Of a stretch of 24,942 nucleotides of DNA, positions 1,113 through 22,762 are shown piece by piece; position 1 is the stretch's first letter; each line of letters begins with the position of its first letter. This DNA comes from a virus, in the IMG/VR virus record IMGVR_UViG_3300013093_000258, positions 1 through 24,942 of that record. The stretch is one strand, 5' to 3'. The translations under genes and the position numbers were made by a program. Under the pieces are notes generated by a model. That model searched no databases and was not told the origin of the DNA. It saw only the letters and a list, made by a program, of their open reading frames with translations.

Positions 1113-1121
1113 TATAAATAT
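1113..1121 (-). promoter_or_regulatory. Candidate late promoter element ATATTTATA
   Basis: The coding strand reads ATATTTATA, 22 bases before the ATG of the 217-aa structural gene, inside the only real gap (1091-1138) between it and the 1525-aa gene. The same word precedes four other gene groups in this window. A promoter role is inferred from this repeated placement and the presence of a gp55-like sigma gene. Confidence 0.5.
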
Positions 1122-1138
1122 AGTGAAATTATAAATCT

Positions 1139-4100
1139 TTATTGACTTGTATTTGCTTGTGAAGATAATAACTGAGCCTGAACCTGAGATTGGATCGTAT
1201 TAATGTTCGCCAATACCGTTGGGTTTATGTTCTGAGGAATCAAGAATCCATAAGAAGTTTGACCTGGTTTCTTAATAAATGCTAATTGAATATTCTGTTC
1301 GTCTTTGTATCTTCTTAATAAAAGGAACTGAGATATCTTATTAGGGCTAGTTGTCCATGTGCCGTATATCGTTGGTAATACGCTGATATTGACTCTATTG
1401 CTGGAATCCAATGTATATCCTATTACGTCCAAATTTTGAGTAATAACGCCGTCGCTCATGATTATCTTGTCTCCAAATTGAGGTTGGAAAACGTAAGAAA
1501 CGTCTTGGTATTGACTGTATAAACTGCTTGAATAGATAATGGATCCAGACGAGAAATTAGGTACAAATTGATATCCTAGATAGTTAGATAAGCTTGAGTT
1601 CAATACTATAGAACCTGTGTTATTGTTGAAAGCTCCTGAGATAAAATTACCTGCAACCAAACTAGAAGTAGCGTAAGGATATCCACCTGCACCGGCCGCG
1701 GCAGAGTTAAGACCCAAAGAACTATTTGAGGCTCCTGTACTCAAAGAGGCTGTGTAGTTATTCGTAGACATGCTTCTTTGTATCAGTTGGAAAGACACTT
1801 TATCAGAAGGAGTCAACGATATACTTGGAGTGGTATAGTTTACTGTAAATGTTTTAGCATAAGTAGAAGACGCTGGAATCGTACCTGCACTATGAATGTT
1901 GGACAATATAGCTGCGCCTCCTCCCGTTGTTGCGACAGGTAAGTAGCTATACACACTAGTAGCGCTCGTTATCAAATATCCGTAATAAGTAGTTCCAGAA
2001 GATACCCAAGAATAGAATCCATAATTTATGTAATCCGCTCCGGTTCCTACCGTTGTAGAAGAAGCTCCGTTATATATTGAGATTGGACCGTATATGTATC
2101 CTACGCTAGTAACTAAAGTCACACTTGTACTACCTCCAGGAAGTACTGCGCTTGAAGTTAAATTAGCGTAAGTAGAAGAACCAGCAGTATAGCTAGACGT
2201 AAAGTCCATTATCTGTTGAGTACTTCCTGGCAATAAAGCTCCGTTTAAGTATACTTGATACAAGAACGATCCGCTGTCTATTGCGCCGCCCTTTGTTTGA
2301 GGATCTTGGAATTGTAAGCTTAATTGGAAATTAGTCGCAAAACTACTTTGTCCGGCTACGTTTGCAGAGTAACTAGGGAACATCATATTCTGAGATCCTG
2401 TGTAACCTGTCGTAGGATTCGCTACGTCAAATATGTTATATATGTTACCAGTTCTTGTACTTGCATTCGTTATAGAAGCCGAGAAGAACGGATTAGGACT
2501 TCCGCTTATGTAAGCATTAGAAGTTGGAATATCAGTAGTAGATGCGTTCCATGCAATGAAGTTAGAAACTAAGGCATTACCGGTGTAGTTGAAGTATAAG
2601 TTATTATCCACGCCTGACACAAAATACAATTCAGGAGAGTAAGAATACCCGCTGTTGTATATTGTCTTAACGCCATCTGTGCTCTTCTGATTTCCGAATT
2701 TTTTGTTGTCGAATTGCTTAATTGTTAAATTGTTACCTGCTACAAAAATGTTTTGTATGTCGGTCCAGTTCTTGTTGTTTTGGTTTAATTCGTGTAATCC
2801 TCCAGACACGTCAACCAAATATGCCAAAGAAGCATTGATTTCGCCTGGAATGAACGAGCTAGTTTCTACTTGAGTAAATAGAGCCAATTTATTCGTATAG
2901 TAATTGATCATTGGATCGTTACCGTAGCTTATATCTCCATCGTAAGTTGCGCTTTGAGTAGTGTATACGTTATAAGCAGCTCCTCTAGAATAAGATCCGC
3001 TGTATCGAGGTATGATGCTTCTTCTTAAGTTGTAGTTATAGTCCTGTACACTAGCGTATTGACCGTTTGGATTGTTCTGATAGCTTGGACCAAACGCTAT
3101 TGATTGAGTTATTAATCCATAGTTAGTGGCTTTATTCTTTGATACTCCACTAAAATCCAATTTATAGAACAGTTTAGACTTAACAGATCCTGTAACGTTT
3201 TGATACAAAGCACCCAAATTAATGCTCTGAGTCGGTACATAGCTTCCAGATATACTATTAAATTGAAAAGGCTGATACGATCTTTCGGTTTGACTTTTTG
3301 TTCTATTGGTACCAGTAAACATCGATCCACTAAATTCCCCAGTAAATGTCTCGAACCCAACGCTTCTTGAAACCGGGATTAATCCTTTTGTAGTGTACTC
3401 TGTTTTAACGTAAGCAGTAGACTTATTTAGACCCAAAGCATTAGAGCCCGTAATTTTACTTCCGCTTATTTCCGATACCAATCCGCTGTTATTAATCGCT
3501 ATGGGTTGGTGTCTAGCGTACTTGCTTCTTTCTAATATGTGTGGCTTTACAATGATCCCAGTGGACACATCGGCTCTCGCAGGCACGAAGTCCTTGATCA
3601 TCTTAAACAAACTATTGTTGTAGAATTTGATCATTCTCAAGTACTCCCAAACGCTGTGTTGATACGTTGCGTTGGCGAATACCGTATTCTTTAGATTGTC
3701 CAAATTTTGATAAGACGCCGAGTACAAATCAGTCGGGTTACCTATCAATTGATCTATGTTAAAGTATCCCAATGACCCAGTAATGTAAGCGTTGATAGTA
3801 TCCGAAGGAGAAAATCCAACTTCTATTTTTGGTACGTCGGCTCTTCTATTAGTTTGATTATATTGTAAAGTTGCGTAAGGAGATAACACAGAAGAGGATA
3901 TAGATAAGCTGCTTGTTACAGCGTAAGCCTTCTGATTATTGATTTCCAACACACCGTCTTGAATACCTCTATCGTATCCACCAAATTCGTTAATAGTTAA
4001 AATACCCTCAGGTATACCGAAACAAGATATCAAAGCTTTTATTCCTCTGTGAGTACCTTTTGTCTTTAGTAAGTAAGGTAAATTGTGATAAATTCTCTTA

Positions 4101-5716
4101 TAAACTTCGCTCTGAATGATTTGAGCAGGCAAAGTTGAAATACTAGAAGTCACGTAATTTGTTATTCTTTCGGATCCAGTTGGAGGCAATAAACTACCGT
4201 CCGCATTGATACCAAATAAAGAATAATACAAGTTATCCGATAGGTTGGAATTCGTATACAACGAAACACCCAATCCTTTTAAAGCATCTCCAACTAAATC
4301 CAGAGACACACCAGTATTAGGATTATTTGTGTTATTGTATCTATTAGTTACGTCTTTATAATAGATCCAGACATTATCAAAATGCTGTCCTATCATATAC
4401 ACAAAAGTCTCGTAAGGAGCATTGTTAGGATCGTCCAATAAGTACTGTGGAATCGTATTGATCAGCATGTCCTTGTTGGTCAAATCGTAGTAAGACGCAG
4501 AGTACAACATCGATACGTTGCTTGCAGAAGGCACAGTAGTAGCGCTTCCCAACCAATTTAAAGCTGCGGTAGAAGTTACAGAAGCTTGTTGGTAAGGTTG
4601 TGTAGTGTTAGTTTTTGGCCAAGCATAAGAAGCCGAAGTATAATACAAATAGTACTCGTAAGTATCGAAATTTGTTATTATGTTGTTTATGGATTGACTC
4701 AAAAATCCTATAGAAGAAGATGCGGCTAAGTTACCTCCAACTACAGATTTCTGTGCATTTATTTGAGAGTTGTAAGACTCTATTAATCCAAGCTTGTAAG
4801 TAAAGTTGTTTAATCTCTCTATCGCACTTGAGAAGTGGATGAAATTAGAGAAATTAGTATAGTCTACGTTAATGCTTATAGACTTATCTTGATAGTAGCT
4901 ATTTAACTGATTGAAAGAAGAAGTTACTGGGCTCGCTATTAAGTTACTATAATTGTAATAAGGAGTTGTTAATCCTACTTTTTGATTAACGTCTATCTTA
5001 AAATTAGGTCCTCTTAAAGCGTTATTATTTAGTACAGGTTCTGCCTCTACTTGTATGTTTACGTTATAGCTAACAGATTGAGCAACTTGATCCACGATCC
5101 ACAAAGTAGATTTAACGTCAAAATCTGTAGGTAATGGTTCGTATAATTTTATTAATAAGTTAGCTCCATTGGAATCAGTAGAATACGCAACGTTAACAGC
5201 GATTATAAGTTGATTTCCACCAAAATTAAGGTAGAAGTCAGCGAAATAATTTTTATTTGCTGCGTAAGTTTGATAGTCGTTAAAGCCCGATAGTATGGAA
5301 CTATCGCTTATAGTCTGAGATGAAAGAATTAACTCTTTTCTTGATGGAGATATTTGCTTTATCCAATAAAAATTACCGTAAGAAGAGTTAAATAAATTTC
5401 GTAAAAAGTTGTATTGAACGTTGGTAGAACCTCTATCGAATCCCAAACCAGTCACATAAGACTGAGGATCCAATACGATATTTCCGTAAGATCCATTATT
5501 TGTATTCGCTTGAGAAGGAAGCTTGTAAGACGTATAGTTGTAATCGCTACTTAACAAATTACTGTTATCGTCATACACAAAAGCCTCTACGTAATCGTTG
5601 CTATTACTAAGGAAACTAGTATTTATGTAGTTATTGGTAATAAGAGTAAGATCAGAGCTATTGTACTGCTGAGCTTCTACTCCTTGTCCGTTGTATATTA
5701 CGTTTACTAATTCCAT
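1139..5716 (-). CDS. Large baseplate wedge protein, gp7/P2 GpI-like
   Basis: This 1525-aa protein is the largest in the window. Around residues 543-575 it has PYLLKTKGTHRGIKALISCF followed by GIPEGILTINEFGG. The K553-G554-T555 turn followed by a helix and FGI resembles the conserved core of P2 GpI-type tail proteins, whose T4 counterpart is gp7. Established structural work pairs gp6 with GpJ, gp7 with GpI and gp25 with GpW; the first and third partners are encoded just upstream here, which supports this reading. The C-terminal two thirds is Ser/Thr/Tyr/Asn-rich, beta-like and much longer than T4 gp7 (about 1030 aa), so it may carry fibre-like or receptor-facing domains. Its start codon overlaps the stop of the 114-aa gene by one base (TAATG). 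A structural role is nearly certain; the gp7 equivalence is moderate. Confidence 0.65.
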   Translation of the reverse strand: MELVNVIYNGQGVEAQQYNSSDLTLITNNYINTSFLSNSNDYVEAFVYDDNSNLLSSDYNYTSYKLPSQANTNNGSYGNIVLDPQSYVTGLGFDRGSTNVQYNFLRNLFNSSYGNFYWIKQISPSRKELILSSQTISDSSILSGFNDYQTYAANKNYFADFYLNFGGNQLIIAVNVAYSTDSNGANLLIKLYEPLPTDFDVKSTLWIVDQVAQSVSYNVNIQVEAEPVLNNNALRGPNFKIDVNQKVGLTTPYYNYSNLIASPVTSSFNQLNSYYQDKSISINVDYTNFSNFIHFSSAIERLNNFTYKLGLIESYNSQINAQKSVVGGNLAASSSIGFLSQSINNIITNFDTYEYYLYYTSASYAWPKTNTTQPYQQASVTSTAALNWLGSATTVPSASNVSMLYSASYYDLTNKDMLINTIPQYLLDDPNNAPYETFVYMIGQHFDNVWIYYKDVTNRYNNTNNPNTGVSLDLVGDALKGLGVSLYTNSNLSDNLYYSLFGINADGSLLPPTGSERITNYVTSSISTLPAQIIQSEVYKRIYHNLPYLLKTKGTHRGIKALISCFGIPEGILTINEFGGYDRGIQDGVLEINNQKAYAVTSSLSISSSVLSPYATLQYNQTNRRADVPKIEVGFSPSDTINAYITGSLGYFNIDQLIGNPTDLYSASYQNLDNLKNTVFANATYQHSVWEYLRMIKFYNNSLFKMIKDFVPARADVSTGIIVKPHILERSKYARHQPIAINNSGLVSEISGSKITGSNALGLNKSTAYVKTEYTTKGLIPVSRSVGFETFTGEFSGSMFTGTNRTKSQTERSYQPFQFNSISGSYVPTQSINLGALYQNVTGSVKSKLFYKLDFSGVSKNKATNYGLITQSIAFGPSYQNNPNGQYASVQDYNYNLRRSIIPRYSGSYSRGAAYNVYTTQSATYDGDISYGNDPMINYYTNKLALFTQVETSSFIPGEINASLAYLVDVSGGLHELNQNNKNWTDIQNIFVAGNNLTIKQFDNKKFGNQKSTDGVKTIYNSGYSYSPELYFVSGVDNNLYFNYTGNALVSNFIAWNASTTDIPTSNAYISGSPNPFFSASITNASTRTGNIYNIFDVANPTTGYTGSQNMMFPSYSANVAGQSSFATNFQLSLQFQDPQTKGGAIDSGSFLYQVYLNGALLPGSTQQIMDFTSSYTAGSSTYANLTSSAVLPGGSTSVTLVTSVGYIYGPISIYNGASSTTVGTGADYINYGFYSWVSSGTTYYGYLITSATSVYSYLPVATTGGGAAILSNIHSAGTIPASSTYAKTFTVNYTTPSISLTPSDKVSFQLIQRSMSTNNYTASLSTGASNSSLGLNSAAAGAGGYPYATSSLVAGNFISGAFNNNTGSIVLNSSLSNYLGYQFVPNFSSGSIIYSSSLYSQYQDVSYVFQPQFGDKIIMSDGVITQNLDVIGYTLDSSNRVNISVLPTIYGTWTTSPNKISQFLLLRRYKDEQNIQLAFIKKPGQTSYGFLIPQNINPTVLANINTIQSQVQAQLLSSQANTSQ

Positions 5717-6060
5717 TATGCGGTTATATTACTTACGTTTAAATAAGTTTGACTAAGATCAACTAATTGTTGTCTTAAAGTATTAATTTCGTCTATTAAA
5801 GCCTGTTCTTGTGCACTAACTGTAGATCCTCCGATGTATTGAGTACTTCGTTGAACCAATTCCTGATGAGAGTTCGTAGATCCACTTACTGGTATATCGT
5901 AGAATAACTGATCGTAGTATTCAAAGAATTGAGGTATTGTTATAGTAGAACTTGATACAACAGGAGTAGCGGCTATAAGTTCCGAAAAACTTGTGTCTAT
6001 TACCTTGCTGTAGGTATTTACACCGTATACCTGTTTTACTAAATTTACTGTTTCTGTCAT
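5716..6060 (-). CDS. Small baseplate-operon protein (114 aa)
   Basis: I do not recognise this 114-aa protein. It begins MTETVNLVKQVYGVNTYSKV, has a central aromatic stretch (IPQFFEYYDQLFYDIP) and ends with a short helical segment (about residues 82-105, EQALIDEINTLRQQLVDLSQ) that looks like a coiled coil. It has no membrane segment and no cysteines. Its start overlaps the stop of the 366-aa gene and its stop overlaps the start of the 1525-aa gene, both as TAATG, so its translation is probably coupled to both. A position between wedge proteins suggests a minor baseplate component or a chaperone for the giant neighbour; both are inference. Confidence 0.7.
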   Translation of the reverse strand: MTETVNLVKQVYGVNTYSKVIDTSFSELIAATPVVSSSTITIPQFFEYYDQLFYDIPVSGSTNSHQELVQRSTQYIGGSTVSAQEQALIDEINTLRQQLVDLSQTYLNVSNITA

Positions 6061-7160
6061 TACCTAACAATTTTAAAAATCAAGTTACTATCTATATTTA
6101 TCGTTTCGTTCGTTGAAGGCAATACAGTTTGAACTAATAATTTGTAATATCTTTCAGATTCCAATCCATTTATGTACAAGTTAAAGTAGTTGTAAGTACC
6201 GTCAGAACTTATCTTTGTATAAGTAGTATCGAAGTCGATAACCATCTCTTCTGTTTTATAGTCCTGTATTGCCCAATAAGAACTTGAAGGTAATAACAAA
6301 GTATTCAAATACACAGAAGACGTTGTAAATTGTCTTGTTGGGAATGTAGGTCTTGTTGCCAATCTAACTCTGTATTTTTGAGTTCCGTATTTGAATTCGC
6401 TTTGATTATTGGCAAAGTTAACCACAAAATCGTCTGTAGTTACAATAGATCCAGTCATATAGTTACTATCGTCCCATTTTATTTCTAAAGTTGGAGGATA
6501 TATAGTGTGAGTATCTGTACTAAAGAACTTTGTTCCAATATAAGAACCAGAATTGTTTTCTATCGACGTAGGATATTTAACAAGTATTCCGTAATTAGGA
6601 AAAGATCCAGAAAACCAAGAAGCAACTATCGGACTAACGTTTGCATTAATATCTTTGTTATCAGCGTAAGCAAAGCTTTGAGTTGTGTAAACAGAAGTCC
6701 ACGATCCTCCGCCTTGAATAGTGAAATAACTAGAACTAATGCTATTCCAAGTCGTAGAAGCTCCGGTTATATAAGCGTTAGGAGAGTTCCAGCAAACCCC
6801 GTTTATAGTTTCAGGATAGTCGATAAATTTACCTGTACCCATATCCCAAGATTGACTGACTTGTCTAAATTCTAAAGAATAAGTCGTAGATAAATTCTCT
6901 GCGCTTGCCAAATATAATCTAAGATTCGCTTGGAAAGATGATCCAGTAGAAAGGGACTTTACTGTAGCCAAATCTGTAGCAGAAAATTGAACTAAAGATC
7001 TTCTTATGTTTTCAACATAGCTGGCCAGATAAGTACCGTTCGTAGTAGCACCGTAATTCTTAACTCCAATTTCTAATATTTCGTCTAGACCTGTATTTTT
7101 ACTTACATCCGAAGAATATATTGTTGCGTCTGCACTTGCGAATATTTTGTATACTGCCAT
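6060..7160 (-). CDS. DNRLRE-like beta-sandwich virion protein
   Basis: The N-terminus (about residues 1-75) follows the pattern of DNRLRE-type carbohydrate-binding modules: KIFASADATIYSSD, then a Gly/Leu-containing segment with LEIGV, then RRSLVQFS. In that family an A-D-A-(Y/T)-(V/I) strand is followed by a conserved R(S)L..F strand. The rest (to 366 aa) is beta-rich with many Ser/Thr/Tyr residues, and SWDMGTGKF and WTSVYTTQSFAYA resemble the second half of the same sandwich. The C-terminal 120 residues look like a separate domain. It lies between gp6 and the large wedge protein, so it may be a peripheral baseplate protein contacting host glycans. Family assignment rests on pattern recall only; a tail structural role is well supported by context. 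Confidence 0.6.
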   Translation of the reverse strand: MAVYKIFASADATIYSSDVSKNTGLDEILEIGVKNYGATTNGTYLASYVENIRRSLVQFSATDLATVKSLSTGSSFQANLRLYLASAENLSTTYSLEFRQVSQSWDMGTGKFIDYPETINGVCWNSPNAYITGASTTWNSISSSYFTIQGGGSWTSVYTTQSFAYADNKDINANVSPIVASWFSGSFPNYGILVKYPTSIENNSGSYIGTKFFSTDTHTIYPPTLEIKWDDSNYMTGSIVTTDDFVVNFANNQSEFKYGTQKYRVRLATRPTFPTRQFTTSSVYLNTLLLPSSSYWAIQDYKTEEMVIDFDTTYTKISSDGTYNYFNLYINGLESERYYKLLVQTVLPSTNETINIDSNLIFKIVR

Positions 7161-7170
7161 TGTTTAATTA

Positions 7171-9030
7171 TTAAAATGTTACTACTCTACCTTGAATGTC
7201 CGTATTTGGATACAATACTTCAAATATACATGGATCCAACGAAGGATATATTACGTTGTTTACAGTGGCTCCAGCTATATCGTAAGCGTATTGAGAATAA
7301 GTAGCTCCAGTTGAATCTACTAAATTGCTTATGGTGATATTTTTAACCGTTTGAACTCCTTGAATTTGATCCAATAAAGAATACAAATTGGTTAATATGA
7401 TAGGCTGATTGATTTGCCAATTATCTATATCGAAGAAGTTTTGAATGGCCGTAATACATCTTGATATTATGTCTTGACCGTTATAGCTAGGTAATATTAC
7501 CACATCAAAATTAACGCCTATATTAACTATGTAAGCCTGCTGTATTTTAACAGCGTCTGTCAACATTCTATAATCTTGGATGTACGTTTGTACGTTCTGT
7601 AATAAAGCTGGGGTTGGTTCTGCAAGATTTCCATTTGTATCCAATCCAAGAACGTACATAGTAATCAACAAGGGATTTTGTTGCGTAGGATCTCCGTTTA
7701 CGTAATTCGCAAATGTTTGATCGTTTTTAGTTACGTAAGCTTTTGAAACTTTACCGTACATTGGTGGCATACATAATACTCTAGCTAAATAATCCTGTTG
7801 AGTAACAGCTCTCCATTGAGTAGGAAACTCTGCCAATGTATTCATTCTCAATTCGTCTACAGTATCTCCATCACCCCCTCCCACAGAAGAACTTACGTTG
7901 TTTGTTACTAGCGTAGATGCATTTCCGTTTTGACTTGTGTATTGTACCGATACTACATTTGTCAATTCTCCTATAGAAGCGTTTGAAGATGCGCCACCTC
8001 CAGCTAAATAGTTAAACGTAATGGTAGTATTAGTAGGAGCAAGACCGTAAGTTTGTGTAGTGACAAAGTTAGTAGGGTCCCATGAGCTAGACAAATAGCT
8101 CAATCCACCGCCAGTAAAACCTACGCTAACGTTATTTGGGTTAGGTAAAACAGCGCTGTCAGCCACTGAGTTGATACCAGGACCGAACTCTATTTGTAAC
8201 GTATTGTTGCTTGTGAATCTGGATACGAATCTTCTTGGAACCTGTTGCTTTTGAATTATGTAAGGAACTTGATTCTGATACTGATTCAAAGCCGGGTAGT
8301 TCGCAGCCGTATTGGCCACTGGGGTCAATATATAGTCTTGAGCCAAATAGGGAACTTCGTACCAATTGTTTCCGTTTGAATCAACGGCACTTATGATCTG
8401 TATGATACTAGAGTCGTTTATGGCCACAGTAGAGAATCGTTGTGAAGATCCGAAAGAAAAGCTCTGGTTTTTAACTTGCCCAGATATTGCGTTAGTTGAT
8501 TTCTTTAACAGATACGAAGTAGGTACAGAACCTCCGTTTACTTGATACACAGAAACGGTCGTAGGATTCAACGAAGAAGATACCGTAAAGTCAACAACAT
8601 TTCCTACGTAATAGTAAGAGCTGTTATTAATATTTGACTGAACTTGCATCCCAGGTTGGATAGTCAATCCGTAGCTAAAGTCGGGAGTGGGTTGTCCACC
8701 CACTGTTTTTGCTGGAACTTGTTGATAAACGTCCAAATTTACTACCGCAGCAGAGGTAACCTTTGGTCTATAACCAAGCATATAGGCCAAAGTGTATAAG
8801 TTGTTAGGTTGCTTTGCGTATTGTAAAAAAGTTTCTTGTATTTGATTGTCCAAATAGAAAGACATTACGTCTCCAACGTAGGCTGCCATTTCAATGAACA
8901 TGGTACCAGGAGACGCTTGGCTAAAGTCGTTATAAACTGTTGGATAATACGATTTAGCGTACTCAATCAAATCAGATTTGAAAGAGGTAAAATTCTTGTT
9001 TAAATATGTAACGTCTATCTGATTGGGCAT
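7171..9030 (-). CDS. gp6: Baseplate wedge protein gp6-like (GpJ/baseplate_J family)
   Basis: This 619-aa protein matches T4 gp6 in length (about 660 aa) and style. The N-terminus has the characteristic segments NFTSFKSDLIEYAKSYYP, FSQASPGTMFIEMAAYVGDV and MSFYLDNQIQETFLQYA, then LAYMLGYRP. These are the helices that in gp6 homologues precede the GpJ core. A GpJ-type segment follows around residues 385-430, with GDGDTVDELRMNTLAEFPTQ and RAVTQQDYLARVL (compare the DE.R.R......R.VT..DY of baseplate J proteins). gp6 subunits form the inter-wedge ring of the baseplate in the virion. gp25 lies immediately upstream with one intervening base, as expected for T4-like order. No internal damage is seen. 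Confidence 0.93.
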   Translation of the reverse strand: MPNQIDVTYLNKNFTSFKSDLIEYAKSYYPTVYNDFSQASPGTMFIEMAAYVGDVMSFYLDNQIQETFLQYAKQPNNLYTLAYMLGYRPKVTSAAVVNLDVYQQVPAKTVGGQPTPDFSYGLTIQPGMQVQSNINNSSYYYVGNVVDFTVSSSLNPTTVSVYQVNGGSVPTSYLLKKSTNAISGQVKNQSFSFGSSQRFSTVAINDSSIIQIISAVDSNGNNWYEVPYLAQDYILTPVANTAANYPALNQYQNQVPYIIQKQQVPRRFVSRFTSNNTLQIEFGPGINSVADSAVLPNPNNVSVGFTGGGLSYLSSSWDPTNFVTTQTYGLAPTNTTITFNYLAGGGASSNASIGELTNVVSVQYTSQNGNASTLVTNNVSSSVGGGDGDTVDELRMNTLAEFPTQWRAVTQQDYLARVLCMPPMYGKVSKAYVTKNDQTFANYVNGDPTQQNPLLITMYVLGLDTNGNLAEPTPALLQNVQTYIQDYRMLTDAVKIQQAYIVNIGVNFDVVILPSYNGQDIISRCITAIQNFFDIDNWQINQPIILTNLYSLLDQIQGVQTVKNITISNLVDSTGATYSQYAYDIAGATVNNVIYPSLDPCIFEVLYPNTDIQGRVVTF

Positions 9031-9031: not shown

Positions 9032-9445
9032 TTACGCGTTTTGTATGTTTATCACTGCAGTGTCCTGCTGATTGTTATTATTTAATCTGTAACTAACCGA
9101 TACTGTCACCGATAGAGTGTCAGGCTCTGAAGTTATGGATAGTTCTGTTATTGTTATATTCTTGAAATAGGCCTCTAACTTATTTGTCAAGGATAACTTT
9201 AATTCTTCCAAGCTATAATTTGTGATAGGATCAAAAAGCATTCTTCTTAATCCGGCTCCAAAATTTAAGTTAAAAGGTCTTTCGTTAACATCGGTCAATA
9301 AAAAATTGATTAGATTGTATTTTGTCTGTTCCTGAGAGGTATACACTGGAGTGAATACATTATTCGCAGCAAAAGGTATCTTGACTCCCAAGGAAGTCGA
9401 AGGTTTAAGATCTAACGCCGGTATTTTTACTAATCCGTATGCCAT
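9032..9445 (-). CDS. gp25: Baseplate wedge subunit gp25-like (GpW/lysozyme-like fold)
   Basis: The protein is 137 aa, close to T4 gp25 (132 aa). The diagnostic motif is at residues 52-71: DVNERPFNLNFGAGLRRMLF contains the conserved E-R-P (E55-R56-P57, the family's EPR-type motif), then FG.GL...LF. The C-terminal half (IT..SITSEPDTLSVTVSVSYRL) is the expected beta hairpin region. gp25 links wedge to sheath in contractile tails and is universally conserved among contractile injection systems. It sits between the 174-aa gene (one intervening base) and gp6. Despite the historical lysozyme label in databases, no muralytic activity should be assumed. Confidence 0.95.
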   Translation of the reverse strand: MAYGLVKIPALDLKPSTSLGVKIPFAANNVFTPVYTSQEQTKYNLINFLLTDVNERPFNLNFGAGLRRMLFDPITNYSLEELKLSLTNKLEAYFKNITITELSITSEPDTLSVTVSVSYRLNNNNQQDTAVINIQNA

Positions 9446-9446: not shown

Positions 9447-9971
9447 TTACATCACTCCTTTTGCCATCATTTTTTGCATTAACTGCGTAAAGTCTGGAAC
9501 CGCATTTACTTGAACCATTTCCACAGCGGAACTAGGTCTTGAAGTAGCCAACATATCGCTAACGTCTCCTACAGGAGCGTCTATATTTTCCATAAAGCTC
9601 ATTCCGTCCATGCCAACTTCAGGCGCTCCAAAAGCCATAACGTCCTCTTGTAACATTCCAGAAGCAGTTTCGTTTAATAACTGACTCATAGGATCTTTAC
9701 CGGCAAAAGGTTTCTGAGCTTGCTGAAATTGCTGAGCTGGATTGAAAGGTCTTGTGTTTAAAGTTCCCGGTATAACTGGTTTTTTAGGGGCTGGTTTTGC
9801 CGCTTCTTGTATTGGAGCCAAAACTTTTTTATTCTTTGACTCTAATAATCTGTTTTGTTTGGCAAGGGCCTCCATGATCAAAACGGGCATTTCTTCCCTG
9901 ATCGCATTTTTAACTTCCTCTCTAATAAGGAATCTTAATTTAGCTAAAGCGCTTTGTTTTTTTACTGCCAT
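9447..9971 (-). CDS. Unknown 174-aa baseplate-operon protein
   Basis: I do not recognise this protein. It has three parts: a charged helical N-terminus (residues 3-48) with a likely coiled coil, LAKLRFLIREEVKNAIREE; a low-complexity Pro/Ala/Gln linker (about 50-90) with several KP and PA pairs and QFQQAQKPF; and a Met-rich C-terminus (LTQ- and MM-containing, ending MMAKGVM). It is the first gene of the gp25-gp6-gp7-like group, and a copy of ATATTTATA ends only 4 bases before its ATG, so its mRNA may be almost leaderless if that motif is a promoter. The composition suggests a flexible assembly or linker protein; this is inference. Confidence 0.72.
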   Translation of the reverse strand: MAVKKQSALAKLRFLIREEVKNAIREEMPVLIMEALAKQNRLLESKNKKVLAPIQEAAKPAPKKPVIPGTLNTRPFNPAQQFQQAQKPFAGKDPMSQLLNETASGMLQEDVMAFGAPEVGMDGMSFMENIDAPVGDVSDMLATSRPSSAVEMVQVNAVPDFTQLMQKMMAKGVM

Positions 9972-9975: not shown

Positions 9976-9984
9976 TATAAATAT
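9976..9984 (-). promoter_or_regulatory. Candidate late promoter element ATATTTATA
   Basis: The coding strand reads GATATTTATA, 4 bases before the ATG of the 174-aa gene that opens the gp25/gp6 group, in the 26-bp gap after the 579-aa gene. If it acts like a -10 element, the transcript would start at or next to the start codon. Confidence 0.5.
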
Positions 9985-12183: not shown

Positions 12184-13094
12184 TATTGAATACTATTTAA
12201 AACTAAAGAATCCTGACTAGCAGCGTCTTGAGAATCGTTAGAGATTGGAGGTTGATAATAAGACGCGATAACATTTTGCTGTTCTATCTGTACGTTAACG
12301 TTATTGAAGGAGTCCAAAGGATACTCGGATATAGAATTTAATACTATCTTTTGGCCGGCTGTTAAATATATAGAAGTAGAATCGCTATTAATATCTTCTA
12401 CAGTGGTAGCAAATTTGTCAACGGTATTGGAAACCTGACCCTGACCGTTCCTTATAATCATGATAGGATCTCCATTATTTCCAGCAGTAGACCAGTGATT
12501 AAACTGTCTCATAGATGGAGTGGTGGATCCAAATCTTATAGATTGTCCAAACCTTGATTCTATTAAAGTATCGCCTTCAAATGGAGTCAAAGACTTAATG
12601 TCCTTTTCTGCAAAAGAATAACCTTTTGGAAGTTCTACGTTGTCTGTTTGCGATTGTCCTGGGTAACTTGGCTTCTTTTTGTATTGAGATGTAAAGTTTG
12701 CCCATTCTTCCATATTTGGAAAGGCGTTATGATTCACTGAATTCCACACTTGAAAAGGAGGAAAATAGAACAATCGTTGGCTGTTAAAGTTATCGTTAAG
12801 TCCATGGAAAGGTCCTCTAGTAATAAAGACTATTTCTCCAATAACCGGTAGCTGTTTAATTACGCTAAATATGGGATAAGCCTCTTTAGAAACCGATCCC
12901 ATAGATACGTTGTTTGGACTGTATAAGAATTCAAAGGATATCTTTCCTATATCGTCGTATGTGTTAAAATCTTCGTCTTTTATATTAGGATCTCCACTTT
13001 TGAATGGGCCCAATACAATATTTTTTACACGACCGATAATTATCTCGGAGCCTCCATCGTTGCTTTTAACTGACTGTGGATTATTCCATGCCAT
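12183..13094 (-). CDS. gp5: Baseplate hub/spike protein, gp5 OB-domain-like, no lysozyme
   Basis: This 303-aa protein has the N-terminal OB-fold features of T4 gp5-type hub proteins: EIIIGRVKNIVLGPF (residues 17-31), PIFSVIKQLPVIGEIVFITR (74-93) and LFYFPPFQVWNSVNHNAFPN (108-127). A second conserved block, FEGDTLIESRFGQSIRFGST (172-191), is typical of marine T4-like gp5 proteins. T4 gp5 (575 aa) carries a lysozyme domain after the OB fold; here there is no room for one and no E...D...T lysozyme signature was seen. The protein probably forms the trimeric platform joining tail tube and spike. It overlaps neighbours on both sides by one base (TAATG), so OB protein and separate beta-helix protein are probably made together. 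Confidence 0.8.
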   Translation of the reverse strand: MAWNNPQSVKSNDGGSEIIIGRVKNIVLGPFKSGDPNIKDEDFNTYDDIGKISFEFLYSPNNVSMGSVSKEAYPIFSVIKQLPVIGEIVFITRGPFHGLNDNFNSQRLFYFPPFQVWNSVNHNAFPNMEEWANFTSQYKKKPSYPGQSQTDNVELPKGYSFAEKDIKSLTPFEGDTLIESRFGQSIRFGSTTPSMRQFNHWSTAGNNGDPIMIIRNGQGQVSNTVDKFATTVEDINSDSTSIYLTAGQKIVLNSISEYPLDSFNNVNVQIEQQNVIASYYQPPISNDSQDAASQDSLVLNSIQ

Positions 13095-13453
13095 TACTTA
13101 TCGGTTAATTGTTTTGTGCTTGTGCTTATGGTTGTAACTTCCTTCATTAATTGCTCGATGTCTTTCTCAGAAAGCAATCCTTCCATAACTTCTCCTTCTT
13201 TTGCAGTGGCTTGAGCGGCCTTTTGGAATAAACCAAGTAACTTAACCAAAACTTCGTCGTTCTTTAAACTAGAATCTATAAGACCTTTAATTTGGGGCAT
13301 TAAAACTATTGCGTCTCCTGGGCCCTCTATCATGTCGGCTATTTCTTCTATTTTACTTTTTATAGCCGAATCTTGGTTGTGTTGTCTATTGTAGACCTCT
13401 TGTACAAGGTCAGATATTTTCTTACCCGGAAATATTTCCTTTTCTAATTCCAT
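13094..13453 (-). CDS. Unknown 119-aa helical protein ahead of the spike gene
   Basis: The protein opens MELEKEIFPGKKISDLVQEV and is predicted mostly helical and acidic, with segments LMPQIKGLIDSSLKNDEVLV, LLGLFQKAAQATAKEG and LLSEKDIEQLMKEV. There are no cysteines, membrane segments or catalytic motifs. It lies between the sigma gene and the gp5-like gene; a candidate late promoter lies 13 bases before its ATG, inside the 3' end of the sigma gene. It could be a baseplate assembly protein, or, because of its size and neighbour, a partner of the sigma factor (T4 gp33 is about this size). The sequence does not decide between these. Confidence 0.7.
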   Translation of the reverse strand: MELEKEIFPGKKISDLVQEVYNRQHNQDSAIKSKIEEIADMIEGPGDAIVLMPQIKGLIDSSLKNDEVLVKLLGLFQKAAQATAKEGEVMEGLLSEKDIEQLMKEVTTISTSTKQLTDK

Positions 13454-13461: not shown

Positions 13462-14223
13462 TTAGATATAAATATCTTGATCGTGGTTTTCTATTTGATC
13501 CTGTAATATACTTAGGTAAATAGTTTTTAGCTTCTTTACTACCTTTGTTATGGTATTGGACTGAACTTCTGTAATCTCTTTTACATAGATAAATAAGGCC
13601 TTTTTATTGAATACGTCTATGTTTTCTCTCTTTTTAAAGATCTCCAAGATAGCGTCAGCTGCTTTGATTTCCTCTTCCTTTTCGAACAAATCCATTAAAT
13701 TATCGTCTACGCACTTGATAAACTTTTCTATTACGCTTAGCCTGTCTATGGTCTCACTTTCAGGGTCCAATACTAAACTTTCGTGTGTACCGTCTTGATT
13801 GTCTATCTCCTCAACTTCTATTCTGGAGACCATTCTTTTGTAATTCTTTACGTTATAGATAATTAAATATCTCTTTGCAATTGTGCCAAAATAAGAGTAG
13901 GCTTTACCTTTGGACTGATCGTAAAGGTGCAATTTTTGCAACAAGAATGAGATAACCTCGTACTTCAAATCTTCTATATTGTCCACTTCGGTGTGATAAA
14001 ACTTGAAAGTATGAATAATGTTTTCCGCCAATTTGTAGAACGCATTGTGGATCTCAGTATTATAGATCTTGTTTTTCTCGGCTTGACTTGGAGACAGTCT
14101 GTACCTTAGGATAGCTTCCTCGGTTTCAGAAGTAAAGTAGTTATTTTTTGTTTTCGTTTTTCTTTTCCTTGGAGCACCTTTCTTGGTAAGTCCTAAAAAT
14201 TCTACCTCTTTTTCTTCAGCCAT
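13462..14223 (-). CDS. gp55: Late-transcription sigma factor, gp55-like
   Basis: This 253-aa protein has a basic N-terminus (RKRKTKTK, residues 20-27), then YFTSETEEAILRYRLS and a region matching sigma-70 region 2: IEDLKYEVISFLLQKLHLYD (83-102), then KGKAYSYFGTIAKRYLIIYN (105-124), which resembles the F.....(Y/F)........N.. core of gp55-type sigma factors. No region 4 helix-turn-helix is obvious, as in T4 gp55, which recognises only a -10-like late promoter. The C-terminus ends DQDIYI, an acidic-hydrophobic tail that could be a sliding-clamp binding motif like that of T4 gp55 (inference). It probably directs host RNA polymerase to the late promoters of this phage, and is a candidate reader of the ATATTTATA sites. 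Confidence 0.85.
   Translation of the reverse strand: MAEEKEVEFLGLTKKGAPRKRKTKTKNNYFTSETEEAILRYRLSPSQAEKNKIYNTEIHNAFYKLAENIIHTFKFYHTEVDNIEDLKYEVISFLLQKLHLYDQSKGKAYSYFGTIAKRYLIIYNVKNYKRMVSRIEVEEIDNQDGTHESLVLDPESETIDRLSVIEKFIKCVDDNLMDLFEKEEEIKAADAILEIFKKRENIDVFNKKALFIYVKEITEVQSNTITKVVKKLKTIYLSILQDQIENHDQDIYI
13467..13475 (-). promoter_or_regulatory. Candidate late promoter element ATATTTATA
   Basis: The coding strand reads GATATTTATA, 13 bases before the ATG of the 119-aa gene. It overlaps the last codons (D-I-Y-I) and stop region of the sigma-factor gene, so it would let the spike group be transcribed independently of the sigma gene. Confidence 0.5.
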
Positions 14224-14226
14224 AAT

Positions 14227-14502
14227 TTATTTTCTGCCAGTGAATTCTTGAACTCTTTTTTGGACTTGTTTGATTGTTTCAAAAAGCTGTAACAATTCTG
14301 GGTCTGATTGTACCCACATTGTCATGTCTATTTTATTTACTAATGCGTTGAACTCGTCCAACATTACAATTGTGTCGTTAACAAAAGAAGATTGGTTGAT
14401 TACGATCTCTTCTAATTTTCTATTTTTCTCTAAAAGATTCCAGATGACGTATCCAATGATACCTCCAATCCATAGAACGATTGAAATAATTCCAATAATC
14501 AT
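14227..14502 (-). CDS. Small membrane-anchored protein with coiled coil (91 aa)
   Basis: Residues 2-22 form one hydrophobic transmembrane helix (IIGIISIVLWIGGIIGYVIW) with almost no preceding residues. It is followed by a charged, probably coiled-coil region (LEKNRKLEEIVINQSSFVND onwards) that ends QVQKRVQEFTGRK. The arrangement suggests an N-in anchor with a cytoplasmic helical domain, though topology could be reversed. I know of similar small proteins in phages but no function. It sits 3 bp upstream of the sigma gene and 2 bp downstream of the HD gene. A single-helix protein expressed with regulatory genes might act on the host membrane; this is speculation. Confidence 0.75.
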   Translation of the reverse strand: MIIGIISIVLWIGGIIGYVIWNLLEKNRKLEEIVINQSSFVNDTIVMLDEFNALVNKIDMTMWVQSDPELLQLFETIKQVQKRVQEFTGRK

Positions 14503-14504
14503 GA

Positions 14505-15137
14505 TTAAATTTGTGTTTCTACCCTTGATGCCATTAGATCAGCTTGATGCAAGATATAAGGTAAATTGCTTTTGATCTCAGACTCAGGGCTATAGGTTAT
14601 GTAATAAGATTTGTTAGATTCTTCGTACAATCCATCGTGTAATTTGATTGCCAAGAATTCGTTCTCACTAACAGGAATATTGGCTTGTTGTAAATAAAAC
14701 AAACTTCTATCTGCAATTCTCATGTGAGTAATATTGGGATTGTACTTGAAGTGAGCTCCTAATTTTTCTACATGCCATTGAGAATCATTAGGAATATAGA
14801 AAGGCTCTTCATTAGTGCCCAATTTACCTAGGTCATGATTAATGGCAGAGAATACTAATTCTTCAATGCTATAATCTTTCTTCTGACCAAAGCGCTCCCA
14901 TACTTTATCCATTACCAAAGAAGCTTCTACGACTCTGTTTACGTGTTCTATGTATCCACCTGCAAAACAGTTGTGATGACCTTTTTTTGTAGACGCTGGA
15001 CTACTTGCTAAAGTAACTTCTCTGTCCGAATAGAATTTAAGTAAAACATCTTTTCTGTCAGATGCAATGTACTTTTCAATGAACCCGTAAAACTTAGATA
15101 AGTTTTCTATGATTTGCTCTTCTGTTAGTTTTTTCAT
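14505..15137 (-). CDS. HD-domain metal-dependent phosphohydrolase
   Basis: This 210-aa protein carries the HD-superfamily signature: H65 (EHVNRV), H101-D102 (NHDLGKLG) and a distal D200 (HQADLMASR), with H167-D168 as a further possible ligand. In this superfamily these residues bind one or two metals and hydrolyse phosphate esters of nucleotides. The N-terminus also has KKGHHNCFAGGYIEHV, where the segment before H65 probably helps form the site. Substrate cannot be read from sequence: a 5'-nucleotidase/dNTP hydrolase supporting phage DNA synthesis, or a hydrolase of signalling nucleotides, are both possible. It lies in the minus-strand group with the thioredoxin-like and sigma genes, which suggests expression before the virion genes. 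Confidence 0.82.
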   Translation of the reverse strand: MKKLTEEQIIENLSKFYGFIEKYIASDRKDVLLKFYSDREVTLASSPASTKKGHHNCFAGGYIEHVNRVVEASLVMDKVWERFGQKKDYSIEELVFSAINHDLGKLGTNEEPFYIPNDSQWHVEKLGAHFKYNPNITHMRIADRSLFYLQQANIPVSENEFLAIKLHDGLYEESNKSYYITYSPESEIKSNLPYILHQADLMASRVETQI

Positions 15138-15151
15138 AACCTTTATTTTGT

Positions 15152-15337
15152 TTAATTAAATTGTTGTTGTTCTTCGTTATTGATTAAGATCTCAATTTCA
15201 GTAAGCTTGTTTCTCATTCTTTCTAATTGTTGCTTAAGAATATCTGGATGCTCTAATCTAGAGATCGACGATTCTTGTCCAGCAATTAAGTTAACTAATT
15301 CACTGAATTTTCTAATAACTAAATCTTTATGTTTCAT
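15152..15337 (-). CDS. Small coiled-coil protein (61 aa)
   Basis: This short protein (MKHKDLVIRKFSELVNLIAG at its start) is almost entirely charged helix; residues about 25-58 (LEHPDILKQQLERMRNKLTE onwards) look like a coiled coil. There is no motif to name. It is kept as real because it fits the tight gene chain exactly: 2 bp after the thioredoxin-like gene and 14 bp before the HD gene, in the same direction. The function is unknown. Confidence 0.6.
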   Translation of the reverse strand: MKHKDLVIRKFSELVNLIAGQESSISRLEHPDILKQQLERMRNKLTEIEILINNEEQQQFN

Positions 15338-15339
15338 TT

Positions 15340-15624
15340 TTATTGTTTTAATTTCTCTATCATTTGTTCAAGAGAAGCTTGTGGTTTTAGAATATAATCA
15401 CCTTTTTTCGTATTAATCAATTTAAGATCCTCGTAAGAATCCGCGACGTAATAAAGATCAGTGTTGTTCACTATCGCCATTGGATACTTGAAAGTATTTG
15501 TTGTGGCTTCCAGTGAATCACAAAATTCAGGGTTACTATCGCAATCAATTTCTACGTACAAACCAAAGATATTGGCTTTTAATTTCGCGCATTGTTTGCA
15601 GCCTTTAAGCGTCGCTATTTTCAT
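15340..15624 (-). CDS. Thioredoxin/glutaredoxin-like protein
   Basis: This 94-aa protein is the size of a small glutaredoxin. The redox motif C9-K-Q-C12 follows the first strand (MKIATLKG) and begins the expected helix (AKLKANIFG). FKYPMAIV around residues 45-52 supplies the likely cis-proline (P48) that faces the active site in this fold, and the C-terminal LEQMIEKLKQ fits the last helix. C28 and C35 are additional. Phage glutaredoxins often serve ribonucleotide reductase, but no reductase gene lies in this window. The start is the ATG at 15622-15624, which lies inside the 3' end of the 57-aa gene (20-bp overlap in another frame), suggesting coupled translation. Confidence 0.8.
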   Translation of the reverse strand: MKIATLKGCKQCAKLKANIFGLYVEIDCDSNPEFCDSLEATTNTFKYPMAIVNNTDLYYVADSYEDLKLINTKKGDYILKPQASLEQMIEKLKQ

Positions 15625-15778
15625 TGTCTTTAAATTCTTTGTCGATTATTTTCATGATTTGTATCCACGTGATCTTTTCATCATCGTTCATGAAAGCAAA
15701 CTGCATGTCTAAATAATTATATATAATATCCAGATCTTCTTCTGTTATATTATCTATCTTTAATTCTTCTATATTCAT
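15605..15778 (-). CDS. Small acidic protein (57 aa), first gene of minus-strand group
   Basis: A short frame starts at the ATG complementary to 15776-15778, immediately after AACAAGGGGA on the coding strand, and ends at TAA (15605-15607). The product begins MNIEELKIDNITEEDLDIIY and continues with MNDDEKITWIQIMKIIDKEF; it is acidic and helical. It fills the space between the divergent intergenic region and the thioredoxin-like gene, overlapping the latter by 20 bases, which is the packing used throughout this window. No family is recognised. The upstream AAGGGG could pair with 16S rRNA but sits unusually close to the start. Confidence 0.55.
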   Translation of the reverse strand: MNIEELKIDNITEEDLDIIYNYLDMQFAFMNDDEKITWIQIMKIIDKEFKDNENSDA

Positions 15779-16870: not shown

Positions 16871-16873
16871 AAT

Positions 16874-20062: not shown

Positions 20063-20064
20063 TG

Positions 20065-20073
20065 ATATTTATT
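20065..20073 (+). promoter_or_regulatory. Candidate late promoter element ATATTTATT
   Basis: The sequence GATATTTATT lies in the 22-bp gap after the recombination gene, 11 bases before the ATG of the nucleotidylyltransferase-ligase gene. It differs from the other four copies only in its last base. Confidence 0.45.
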
Positions 20074-20084
20074 AAGAAACTTAA

Positions 20085-21779
20085 ATGGATTTTAACGTGA
20101 TCAAGACAGTAATCGCAATATACCCAGGAAGATTCCAGCCTTTTGGTAAACACCACGCGGATTCTTTTAAATGGCTAGAATCAAAGTTCGGTGCAGCGGA
20201 TACTTTCATAGCGACTACAGACAAAGTGGAACCTCCAAAGAGTCCATTGAACTTTAAAGAGAAAAAAGCCATCATATCCAAGTACGGATTCGGCAATCAA
20301 GTAGTTCAAGTTAAAAATCCTTACAAAGCCGAAGAGATCACATCAAAATACGATCCTAAGACTACCGCTGTTGTATTCATGGTAGGACAAAAGGACATGC
20401 AAGAGGATCCAAGATTCAAAATTGGCAAAAAGAAAGATGGTACTGATTCTTATTTTAGAAAGTACGAAAAGGACGGAGTGATGAAGCCTTATACTTCTCA
20501 TGGCTATTTAATAGTAGCTCCTCATGCTTCTCATGAAATTCCTGGTATCGGAGAAATGAGCGGTACAAACATTAGAAAAGCTCTATCTACTCCTACCACC
20601 GCGTCTCAATATAAGAAAAACTTCGAAGGAGTATTTGGATGGTGGGACGAAAAGCTTGCCATGTTAATGAAGCAGAAGTTCTCGTCTCAGCCGCTTAAAG
20701 AAGTGTCTGTATTGAGTACTCTTTTTAAGAAGCTATTAATGGAAGGAGGAGCTGGAGGACACATGGCTCATCCGTTTGATTTGGACAAAGTGAAGACCGG
20801 CAAAGATTTGATAGCAGTGTTCGAACAAACCGCAAAATTCTTACAAAAGAATCCAGCTCCAGTAAAAATAGACGGAGTAAACGCTTCTATAAGATTGGGC
20901 AATATAAATGGCAAGAGAGAATTCGTAATCGATAGAGGTTCTGGAAAGGAACTAGACATCAAAGGAGTTACCAAAGCCGATTTGCCTGCAAGATTTGACA
21001 CGCCTGGTCACGGTATGATTAAAGTTGGAGGAAAAGTTTTAGACATATTCAACGAAGCTTTGCCTTCAATTAAGGACGAGTTGAACAAATTGGGTATGAT
21101 CAAGAATCCTAATATTCTTTTTAATATAGAGTACGTAGAGGGCAAAACAAACGTACAGGACTACGGTAAAAACTTCTTGGCGATACACAATTTACTTGAG
21201 ATAACACAAAATCCGGGCAAAAAATCTAGATCAACTCACGAAATTCCTTACTCAAAAGAAGTACTTGAGTCACTTATACAAAAATTACAGCCTTTTGCGA
21301 AGAAGCAAGGATTCGAAGTACTATCTTCAATCCCAGCAAAAGTTACAAAAACTCCAAACTTCGGTTCGGCTTTGTCAAAGAGCTATCCAATAGTATTGGC
21401 AAAGGGCAAAAAAGAAACAAAGAGCCTAAAAGACTGGTTGAATCAAGCCAAGAATACGAAGGGTATGAAACTTAAATTGAAAGACGGTAAAGTTGTTGAC
21501 GCTTTGAGCAAATTAGTTTTCTTGGAAGTCAAGAAAGGCACTCCAGTTACAGAATTGGTTGCCGATCCTAAGGACGCTAAGATCGCCATGGACTCCTTTG
21601 CTATATACGAAGGTACCATGGAACTTGGAGACGTATTATTAAAATCAATGACAAGTCCATTGGGCCCAGTCGATCAACAAGAAGGTATAGTTGTAAGAGA
21701 TCCAGCAATATCGAACGAGCCATTCAAAATTACAGGATCATTTATCGTTAGAGGCTTACAAACAACGTTTACAAAATAA
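20085..21779 (+). CDS. Nucleotidylyltransferase-polynucleotide ligase fusion
   Basis: This 564-aa protein joins two enzyme domains. Residues about 7-195 match the HIGH-type nucleotidylyltransferase fold (NMN adenylyltransferase/cytidylyltransferase): GRFQPFGKHHA (15-25, the GxFxPxHxGH-type site) and EMSGTNIRKAL (157-167, the ISSTxIR-type motif). Residues about 222-564 look like an ATP-dependent RNA/DNA ligase core: motif I PVKIDGVNASIR (259-270) with candidate AMP-accepting K261, NILFNIEYVEG (343-353, motif III/IIIa region), QEGIVVRD (532-539, motif IV) and FKITGSF (547-553, motif V with K548). A conserved-looking linker GGAGGHMAHPFDL begins the ligase half. Possible roles are NAD synthesis or salvage combined with RNA repair or end modification; the substrate is unknown. 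It shares one base with the next gene's start (TAATG). Confidence 0.8.
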   Translation: MDFNVIKTVIAIYPGRFQPFGKHHADSFKWLESKFGAADTFIATTDKVEPPKSPLNFKEKKAIISKYGFGNQVVQVKNPYKAEEITSKYDPKTTAVVFMVGQKDMQEDPRFKIGKKKDGTDSYFRKYEKDGVMKPYTSHGYLIVAPHASHEIPGIGEMSGTNIRKALSTPTTASQYKKNFEGVFGWWDEKLAMLMKQKFSSQPLKEVSVLSTLFKKLLMEGGAGGHMAHPFDLDKVKTGKDLIAVFEQTAKFLQKNPAPVKIDGVNASIRLGNINGKREFVIDRGSGKELDIKGVTKADLPARFDTPGHGMIKVGGKVLDIFNEALPSIKDELNKLGMIKNPNILFNIEYVEGKTNVQDYGKNFLAIHNLLEITQNPGKKSRSTHEIPYSKEVLESLIQKLQPFAKKQGFEVLSSIPAKVTKTPNFGSALSKSYPIVLAKGKKETKSLKDWLNQAKNTKGMKLKLKDGKVVDALSKLVFLEVKKGTPVTELVADPKDAKIAMDSFAIYEGTMELGDVLLKSMTSPLGPVDQQEGIVVRDPAISNEPFKITGSFIVRGLQTTFTK

Positions 21780-22177
21780 TGACTACACAAGAACGCATAG
21801 ACCTAATAGAGGACTTTATAGACTTTGCTAGCTATCACTTAAAGATAGAGGAACTTCCAAAGATGACATTCATTGGAGACAAGAGTTGGGTATTAGCCAG
21901 ACACAGTTTTGGTGAGTATACCAACGAAACCAACTCTATAGTAATGTATATAGCTAACAGAAATTTAGCTGACGTCCTAAGAACTCTGGGTCACGAATTA
22001 ACGCATCACAGACAGAACGAACTTGGATTATTGTATTCCCAATCTGGTGAGACAGGATCTCCAATAGAAGACGAAGCCAACGTTGTAGCCGGTATTCTAA
22101 TGAGAGAGTTTGGCAAGAAACACGAATTAATATACGAAGGCGTTAAGCTAAACGTATTGAAGCAACTTATAAAATAA
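21779..22177 (+). CDS. Small zinc metallopeptidase-like protein (HExxH)
   Basis: This 132-aa protein has the zincin motif H72-E-L-T-H76 within TLGHELTHHRQ (69-79), and a downstream acidic helix, SPIEDEANVVAG (94-105), whose E97 or E99 could be the third zinc ligand of a gluzincin-like site. No signal peptide or membrane segment is present, so it would act in the host cytoplasm or inside the virion. The C-terminal I118-Y-E-G121 fits the T4 prohead protease rule (I/L)-x-E|(A/G), though such a short match can occur by chance. The start overlaps the previous stop by one base. The substrate is unknown; a SprT-like or maturation peptidase is possible. Confidence 0.75.
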   Translation: MTTQERIDLIEDFIDFASYHLKIEELPKMTFIGDKSWVLARHSFGEYTNETNSIVMYIANRNLADVLRTLGHELTHHRQNELGLLYSQSGETGSPIEDEANVVAGILMREFGKKHELIYEGVKLNVLKQLIK

Positions 22178-22182
22178 AGAGT

Positions 22183-22752
22183 ATGAAAGAAAATGTTTTG
22201 AAGAAAGAGTTCTCCAAAAAAGACGTCCAAAGAATGAGAAATATCATTACCAAAAGGACTGGAGATAAAACTCAAGTGTTAGCGGGATGGGAAAAGAAAG
22301 ATCAAGAGCACGTAGAAGGGGACGTATGGGAAGAGCATGGGCGCAAATGGACGATCTCAAACGGTATAAAGCAGACTGTTACTAAGCTGGACGATTTGAA
22401 GAAGCTGGTAGTGATGCCACTGTGTTGTCCTAAGTGTAACAAGCCAATGAGATTGGACGACTTAAACAAAAAAATGTACGGAATTCACAAGGTATGTTTC
22501 GAGTGCGTGATAGACATGGAGGCCGAAATTAAAAAGCAAGGCAAGTGGGAAGAGTACGTTAGTCAACAACAGAACGCAAACAAGAACGCTCAATTGGACG
22601 ATTTGGAAAAGAGAGTGGAAGCTTGGTTGAACCAACGAGATTCTTTCGTATCAGAATCTGGAGAGGTAGAAAGCTGGTCTGAGGGTGATAAGTCTAAAAT
22701 GTACGAAGAGGTAAAACAGTGGATATCGCAACAAAAGGAAGTTAAACTATAA
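22183..22752 (+). CDS. Zinc-ribbon protein of unknown function (189 aa)
   Basis: A four-cysteine zinc site is visible: C82-P-K-C85 and C105-F-E-C108, 19 residues apart, flanked by MRLDDLNKKMYGIHKV. The N-terminal part contains FSKKDVQRMRNIITKRTGDK and EGDVWEEHGRKWTISNGIKQ, patterns I recall from uncharacterised proteins of T4-like marine phages. The C-terminus (about 125-189) is acidic and helical. It lies 5 bp after the peptidase gene and is the last gene before the next candidate late promoter. A nucleic-acid or protein-binding role is likely for the ribbon, but no specific function can be given. Confidence 0.75.
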   Translation: MKENVLKKEFSKKDVQRMRNIITKRTGDKTQVLAGWEKKDQEHVEGDVWEEHGRKWTISNGIKQTVTKLDDLKKLVVMPLCCPKCNKPMRLDDLNKKMYGIHKVCFECVIDMEAEIKKQGKWEEYVSQQQNANKNAQLDDLEKRVEAWLNQRDSFVSESGEVESWSEGDKSKMYEEVKQWISQQKEVKL

Positions 22753-22753
22753 C

Positions 22754-22762
22754 ATATTTATA
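22754..22762 (+). promoter_or_regulatory. Candidate late promoter element ATATTTATA
   Basis: The sequence CATATTTATAAATAAATC lies between the 189-aa and 204-aa genes; ATATTTATA ends 15 bases before the ATG. Here alone the classical T4 late word TATAAATA also occurs on the coding strand (22759-22766), so either reading is possible. Confidence 0.5.

Follow-up and report, generated by a model that had tools for sequence, protein, structure and literature searches.

A probable single-element late promoter, ATATTTAT(A/T), in T4-related phages allied to Flavobacterium phage immuto

Introduction

Phage T4 provides the textbook example of late transcription by means of a phage sigma factor and a one-box promoter. 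T4 late promoters consist of TATAAATA at positions −13 to −6 without a −35 element (PMC2988020, PMC1524935), and are read by gp55 together with gp33 and the sliding clamp gp45 (PMC2988020, PMC1524935, PMC7892883). Variant boxes are found among T4 relatives: that of Aeh1 is CTAAATA, and several other relatives have A or T at position −13 (PMC1524935). In Bacteroidota, the −7 element of sigma-ABfr promoters is TAHHTTTG, with T-12, A-11, T-8, T-7, T-6 and G-5 in F. johnsoniae, in which transcripts start 4–5 nt after the 8-base −7 element and a −33 element is weak or absent (PMC6847099, PMC7366714). The transcripts of F. johnsoniae are mostly leadered (87% with leaders over 10 nt; PMC6847099). Our survey of the open-access literature returned no paper that describes TATTTAT or TATTTATA as a phage late promoter.

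Five copies of the element in the window

The DNA analysed here (the window) is an IMG/VR virus fragment of 24,942 bases, which carries DNA primase and SbcCD-like nuclease genes (PHROGs families) and in which an Rfam search found no RNA element. The closest named relatives are Flavobacterium phage immuto (NC_055915, 160 kb, Immutovirus; gp6-like protein 44% identical) and Microcystis phage Mel-JY01 (PP395634, 190 kb; 43% identical); LR756508 (484 kb, unannotated) is more remote than either. The features considered are as follows.

437–1090, minus strand: gene that opens a run extending beyond the window edge
1113–1121, minus strand: element ATATTTATA, before gene 437–1090; predicted start about 1109–1108, leader about 18–19 nt
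6094–6101, plus strand: sixth ATATTTAT, antisense in a coding gene
7171–9030: gp6-like baseplate wedge gene
9032–9445: gp25-like baseplate wedge gene
9447–9971, minus strand: gene that opens the run holding the gp25-like and gp6-like baseplate wedge genes
9976–9984, minus strand: element ATATTTATA, before gene 9447–9971; AUG 12 nt from the first T of TATTTAT
13094–13453, minus strand: gene that opens the run 13453–9998, tail/baseplate region
13467–13475, minus strand: element ATATTTATA, before gene 13094–13453; predicted start about 13463–13462
13462–14223, minus strand: sigma-like protein, 253 aa; sigma region 2 at about residues 30–134, C-terminal helical domain at about 161–250
13465–13776, minus strand: the C-terminal helical domain of that protein, about 100 residues, absent from gp55
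20065–20073, plus strand: element ATATTTATT, before gene 20085–21779; predicted start about 20077–20078
20085–21779, plus strand: nucleotidyltransferase-like gene (phrog_395) that opens the run 20085–22752
22754–22762, plus strand: element ATATTTATA, before gene 22778–23392; predicted start about 22766–22767
22778–23392, plus strand: DUF3008-like gene (PF11450) that opens the run 22778–24229

The initial annotation had listed five copies of ATATTTATW, all of which we recovered at the same coordinates and on the same strands, 4 to 22 bases before an ATG. As it had also stated, all five genes start runs of abutting or overlapping genes, and the word is missing at the primase/recombination genes (15938, 16874) and at the sigma group (13462–15778). 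There is exactly one further ATATTTAT (6094–6101, plus strand), again as described, which lies antisense within the 366-aa gene and is probably a chance occurrence that is not part of the system. The copy at 13467–13475 doubles as the last codons of the sigma-like gene (D-I-Y-I, in frame, 13462–13476); in the L101 group of relatives, the stop codon of the sigma gene stands immediately before the element or overlaps it.

The raw abundance of ATATTTATW in this AT-rich window is within chance (5 copies versus 2.3 ± 1.7 expected, with at least 5 in 8 of 100 shuffles). Among gene-upstream regions, the word occurs in 5 of 26, against 0.13 expected from dinucleotide shuffles of those same regions, and none of 3,000 shuffles reached 5. 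When no word was preset, ATATTTAT was the most shared upstream 8-mer (5 regions); because some word equals that figure in 22 of 1,000 shuffles, the window taken alone is moderately convincing, and it is conservation that settles the reality of the element.

Conservation among relatives

About 160 IMG/VR relatives were fetched with the gp6-like and sigma-like proteins, and the 40 nt before each orthologous start were read; in unannotated contigs, the start was taken as the ATG of a long open reading frame, usually the first. The relatives are not independent of one another, and counts were weighted by family where possible. Within these 40 nt, TATTTAT precedes the five genes in 126 of 127 distinct orthologue upstream sequences: 17 of 17 for gene 437, 41 of 41 for gene 9447 (almost always at an offset of 11–12), 51 of 51 for gene 13094, 10 of 11 for gene 20085 and 7 of 7 for gene 22778. 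Before the orthologues of the remaining window genes the count is nearly always 0, the exceptions being 6 of 62 (gene 6060–7160), 2 of 10 (9998–11737) and 1 of 34 (1139–5716). In the orthologue upstream sequences, the seven letters stay constant while the flanks vary freely, and the orientation relative to the downstream gene is constant across all five orthologue groups.

Anatomy and predicted transcript start

When the sequences are aligned on the word, they read A(T A T T T A T)A/T; the preceding A is present in 71–81% of them, and A or T follows TATTTAT in 98% of the family-weighted set. No conserved −35 element was seen: across 81 sites, columns −45 to −11 from the first T all hold about 0.25 bit or less, and no −35 column stands out in a 51-family table. 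We defined the offset as the distance from the first T of TATTTAT to the A of the start codon. The family-weighted AUG offsets across 365 gene families come to 0.5 at 9–10, 9.0 at 11–12 and 0.4 at 14–16, followed by a broad spread from 17 to 33; offsets of 10 or less nearly never occur (one case at 9). In the 51 families in which the AUG lies at least 18 nt away, the frequency of A is 0.79 at offset 11 and 0.76 at offset 12.

The simplest reading of the A peak and the AUG limit, we infer, is that RNA starts 11–12 nt downstream of the first T, which would set the element and the start about one helical turn apart, and that messages begin at the AUG itself or carry leaders of at least about 5 nt. 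Given the AUG limit near 11 nt and the distinct peak at 11–12, some mRNAs of the clade are probably leaderless. The nearly leaderless mRNA proposed earlier for the copy at 9976 fits this arrangement, as the predicted start coincides with the AUG of gene 9447–9971 (offset 12); predicted leaders for genes 437, 13094, 20085 and 22778 are about 18–19, 9–10, 7–8 and 11–12 nt, respectively.

Genome-scale scans

A genome-wide scan for enrichment and strand bias, as suggested in the initial annotation, was run on the relatives and gave sense-strand enrichment upstream of virion genes. In motif-free 7-mer scans, ATATTTA ranked first both in immuto (38 sense, 4 antisense, 2.7 expected) and in the 174-kb contig G001 (36 sense, 5 antisense, 2.2 expected), and the T4 late form was not among the top words of either. 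A similar scan of T4 placed ATAAATA first (24 sense, 6 antisense, 1.5 expected; TATTTAT, 6 and 24); the method therefore recovers the known T4 box, and the coding-strand boxes of the two clades are mirror images. Mel-JY01 has 24 sense and 3 antisense copies of ATATTTAT within 90 nt of starts.

In immuto, 32 annotated genes have TATTTAT in the 40 nt upstream; they include those for terminase, portal, PhoH, a virion protein, sheath, tube, hub and tape measure, as well as a gene a little upstream of endolysin and holin. G001 has the element before its orthologues of PhoH, head completion, sheath, tube, hub and tape measure and of three window genes. Among genes of the immuto late region that follow a gap of at least 18 nt, 17 of 37 have TATTTAT at an offset of 9–34, compared with 2 of 47 late genes lacking such a gap (p = 8e-6) and 7 of 63 gap genes of the early region (p = 2e-4). 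The other 20 of the 37 late-region gaps have no TATTTAT at these offsets, and that of the major capsid gene is among them; this gene is without the element in immuto (NC_055915 126896), G001 and Mel-JY01, and its promoter may lie farther upstream in the head operon.

LR756508 encodes the same sigma family, yet TATTTAT is not enriched in it. TACTTAA was considered as a diverged late box of this genome, but the signal within 80 nt is weak (15 sense, 3 antisense) with scattered offsets, and we do not claim it. The host −7 element TAHHTTTG was likewise considered as an early promoter of immuto and was dropped, as it has no sense excess in the early region (7 sense versus 14 antisense genes).

Translation signals around the element

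Shine–Dalgarno (SD) sequences occur at 9% of window genes, and A stands at −3 in 74%; such SD-poor starts with A at −3 are the Flavobacterium pattern (PMC6847099). Immuto and G001 are likewise SD-poor (4%). In Mel-JY01, 30% of genes have an SD sequence. Within 70 nt of starts, the median offset of the element is 41 nt, an SD sequence lies near the AUG at 14 of 20 sites and the element is upstream of the SD sequence at nearly all SD-bearing sites. Because the Mel-JY01 element lies about 41 nt upstream with an SD sequence between it and the start, it is not a ribosome-binding signal; it appears to shift upstream where the leader must house a ribosome site, as would be expected of a promoter. Mel-JY01, in which SD leaders are common, unlike in its SD-poor relatives, also encodes ribosomal protein bS21 (PP395634 22183–22410, L186), a protein that governs anti-SD access in Bacteroidia (PMC9976891).

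A sigma-like protein as candidate reader

The sigma-like gene occupies the same late locus across the clade. In a sample of 30 diverse family members, the others are 37–85% identical to the window protein, and 18 of the 30 weakly match Pfam Sigma70_r2 (E of 1 or less, best 0.00095). The predicted model (pLDDT 78) matches sigma region 2 structures at Z 8–10 and, together with the Sigma70_r2 matches, gives the protein the region 2 homology of a gp55-type late sigma factor. T4 gp55 (7d7c_F) ranks with the best of these structures (Z 9.8, rmsd 5.3 over 116 residues), although the fold match is common to many sigma factors, with ties within 1 Z unit, and gp55 is not singled out. PHROGs holds no family for the protein, and searches of PDB sequences with it and with its family profile returned nothing useful.

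Comparison with seven gp55 proteins by hhalign was weak (E 0.005 for one pair, probability 6.8%, 23% identity, 97 columns) and pairs the expected segment, YFT...KLHLYDQSKGKAYSYF with YVNN...GLHNFDETKYKNPHAYIT. The T4 complex has Y97 stacked on the flipped A-12, with N13 and H95 in contact with A-9 and a bond between T99 and A-8 (PMC7892883). In the weak hhalign alignment, gp55 Y97 falls on Y111, invariant in 30 of 30 proteins; N13 has a gap opposite it, H95 pairs with Y/F109 and T99 with the variable G113. Taken with the caution due to such an alignment, this pattern would fit a box that retains the T–A step and has its two central As changed to Ts. The sigma-like protein (13462–14223) is the likely reader of the element.

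In gp55-type late sigma factors region 4 is lacking, and gp33 and gp45 take over its role. The C-terminal domain of the window protein gave no convincing fold match; its matches include structures of sigma region 4, none above Z 5 (2h27_D, Z 5.0, 69 aligned), and we suggest that it might be a built-in analogue of region 4 or gp33. A profile of the gp45-type clamp (PF02916) matched T4 strongly and had no match in immuto, G001 or Mel-JY01, the silence of a single profile not being proof of absence. Immuto (NC_055915) has two family-A DNA polymerase annotations; these and the lack of a detectable gp45-type clamp suggest that this phage may not couple late transcription to replication in the manner of T4.

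Evidence for a late promoter and alternative explanations

We consider it likely that ATATTTAT(A/T) is the core of a single-element late promoter, read by a gp55-like sigma factor, in a clade of T4-related myoviruses. The initial proposal of a coding-strand late promoter is supported by the association with genes of virion and lysis regions, by the position before run-first genes and by strand specificity; the lack of a −35 element, the 11-nt limit to the start codon, the A peak at 11–12 and the near-leaderless arrangement at 9976 add to this. The element would serve as the −10-like core of the promoter in immuto and in many environmental relatives. With the phage gp55-like sigma factor (13462–14223) bound, host RNA polymerase would open the DNA at T-A-T-T-T-A-T, would make no −35 contact and would begin RNA about 11–12 nt downstream of the first T. 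In this way, virion and lysis gene runs would be transcribed late in infection, some of them as leaderless mRNAs.

The alternative that deserves most attention is a late promoter read by another factor, whether host sigma-ABfr aided by an activator from the phage, a different host sigma factor or some other phage factor. The host element TAHHTTTG shares the register and four of six fixed bases (T-12, A-11, T-8 and T-6) with T-A-T-T-T-A-T-W, and the sigma family assignment is based on weak sequence scores. However, the two positions that differ, with A in place of T at −7 and A/T in place of G at −5, are invariant or almost invariant in the phage element, the same element is present in Mel-JY01, reported from a cyanobacterium, and the sigma gene keeps the same late locus across the clade, which makes this reading rather improbable. 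Much less probable still is an RNA-level signal, that is, a translation enhancer or mRNA processing site at leading genes: closeness to start codons, A-rich leaders and the scarcity of SD sequences in these phages would suit it, whereas the variable offset (11 to 33 and more, with 14–16 nearly empty), run-internal genes without the element and the position upstream of SD sequences in Mel-JY01 all speak against it.

We give very little credence to the possibility that the other strand, which bears exactly TATAAATA(T), is read as an ordinary T4 late promoter to give antisense or upstream-directed RNA, as the orientation towards the downstream gene does not change in any of the five orthologue groups and both the AUG limit and the A peak are on the downstream side. 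This bears on the earlier suggestion that the phage sigma factor had changed either its specificity or its way of reading: we favour changed specificity over a flipped or antisense reading, because the TATTTATA orientation faces the downstream gene and because the sigma-like protein keeps the region 2 fold but not, in the weak alignment, all of the gp55 contact residues. A chance AT-rich word in AT-rich leaders would accord with the raw count in the window; this reading is already refuted, given that the word is kept at the same five genes down to a sigma identity of about 40% with freely varying flanks, and that its enrichment is strand specific and genome wide.

Comparison with known promoter systems

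A large environmental clade with the same logic as T4 and a reverse-complement box amounts to a natural change-of-specificity experiment for sigma region 2. In many uncultured contigs, the element could serve to locate late operons and transcript starts, and leaderless late mRNAs are predicted in phages of Flavobacterium-type hosts, for which the cultured phage immuto allows direct testing. More speculatively, and to our minds doubtfully, the whole might form a one-protein late system, in which a gp55-like sigma factor with a fused region-4- or gp33-like domain works with no sliding clamp on a box rebuilt into the Bacteroidota −7 register (TATTTATW versus TAHHTTTG), its leaderless late mRNAs suiting hosts that ignore SD sequences.

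Like the Bacteroidota −7 element, the phage word is an 8-mer that starts with T–A in nearly the same register to the inferred start, and it goes without a conserved upstream box much as the host element of F. johnsoniae does; it differs in having neither a fixed T-7 nor G-5, the A at the equivalent of −7 being set by the word itself, and in marking late phage genes. The variant boxes of T4 relatives resemble it in that a late box can drift with its sigma factor, but they keep the TAAATA core, the central AA of which is TT here. With T4 late promoters it shares a single 8-bp, AT-only, −10-like element without −35, virion genes downstream and a likely phage-encoded reader with a predicted sigma region 2; its distance to the start, about one turn, would be similar as well. 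It departs from them in that the inferred start is 1–2 nt closer, the sigma factor has an extra C-terminal domain, a gp45-type clamp was not found in immuto, G001 or Mel-JY01, and leaderless late mRNAs are probable in the immuto-type clade. In place of TATAAATA or a variant such as CTAAATA, the coding strand has ATATTTAT(A), containing the reverse complement of TATAAATA. As the element appears to work alike but differs in sequence, we regard it as a variant of the T4 late promoter kind.
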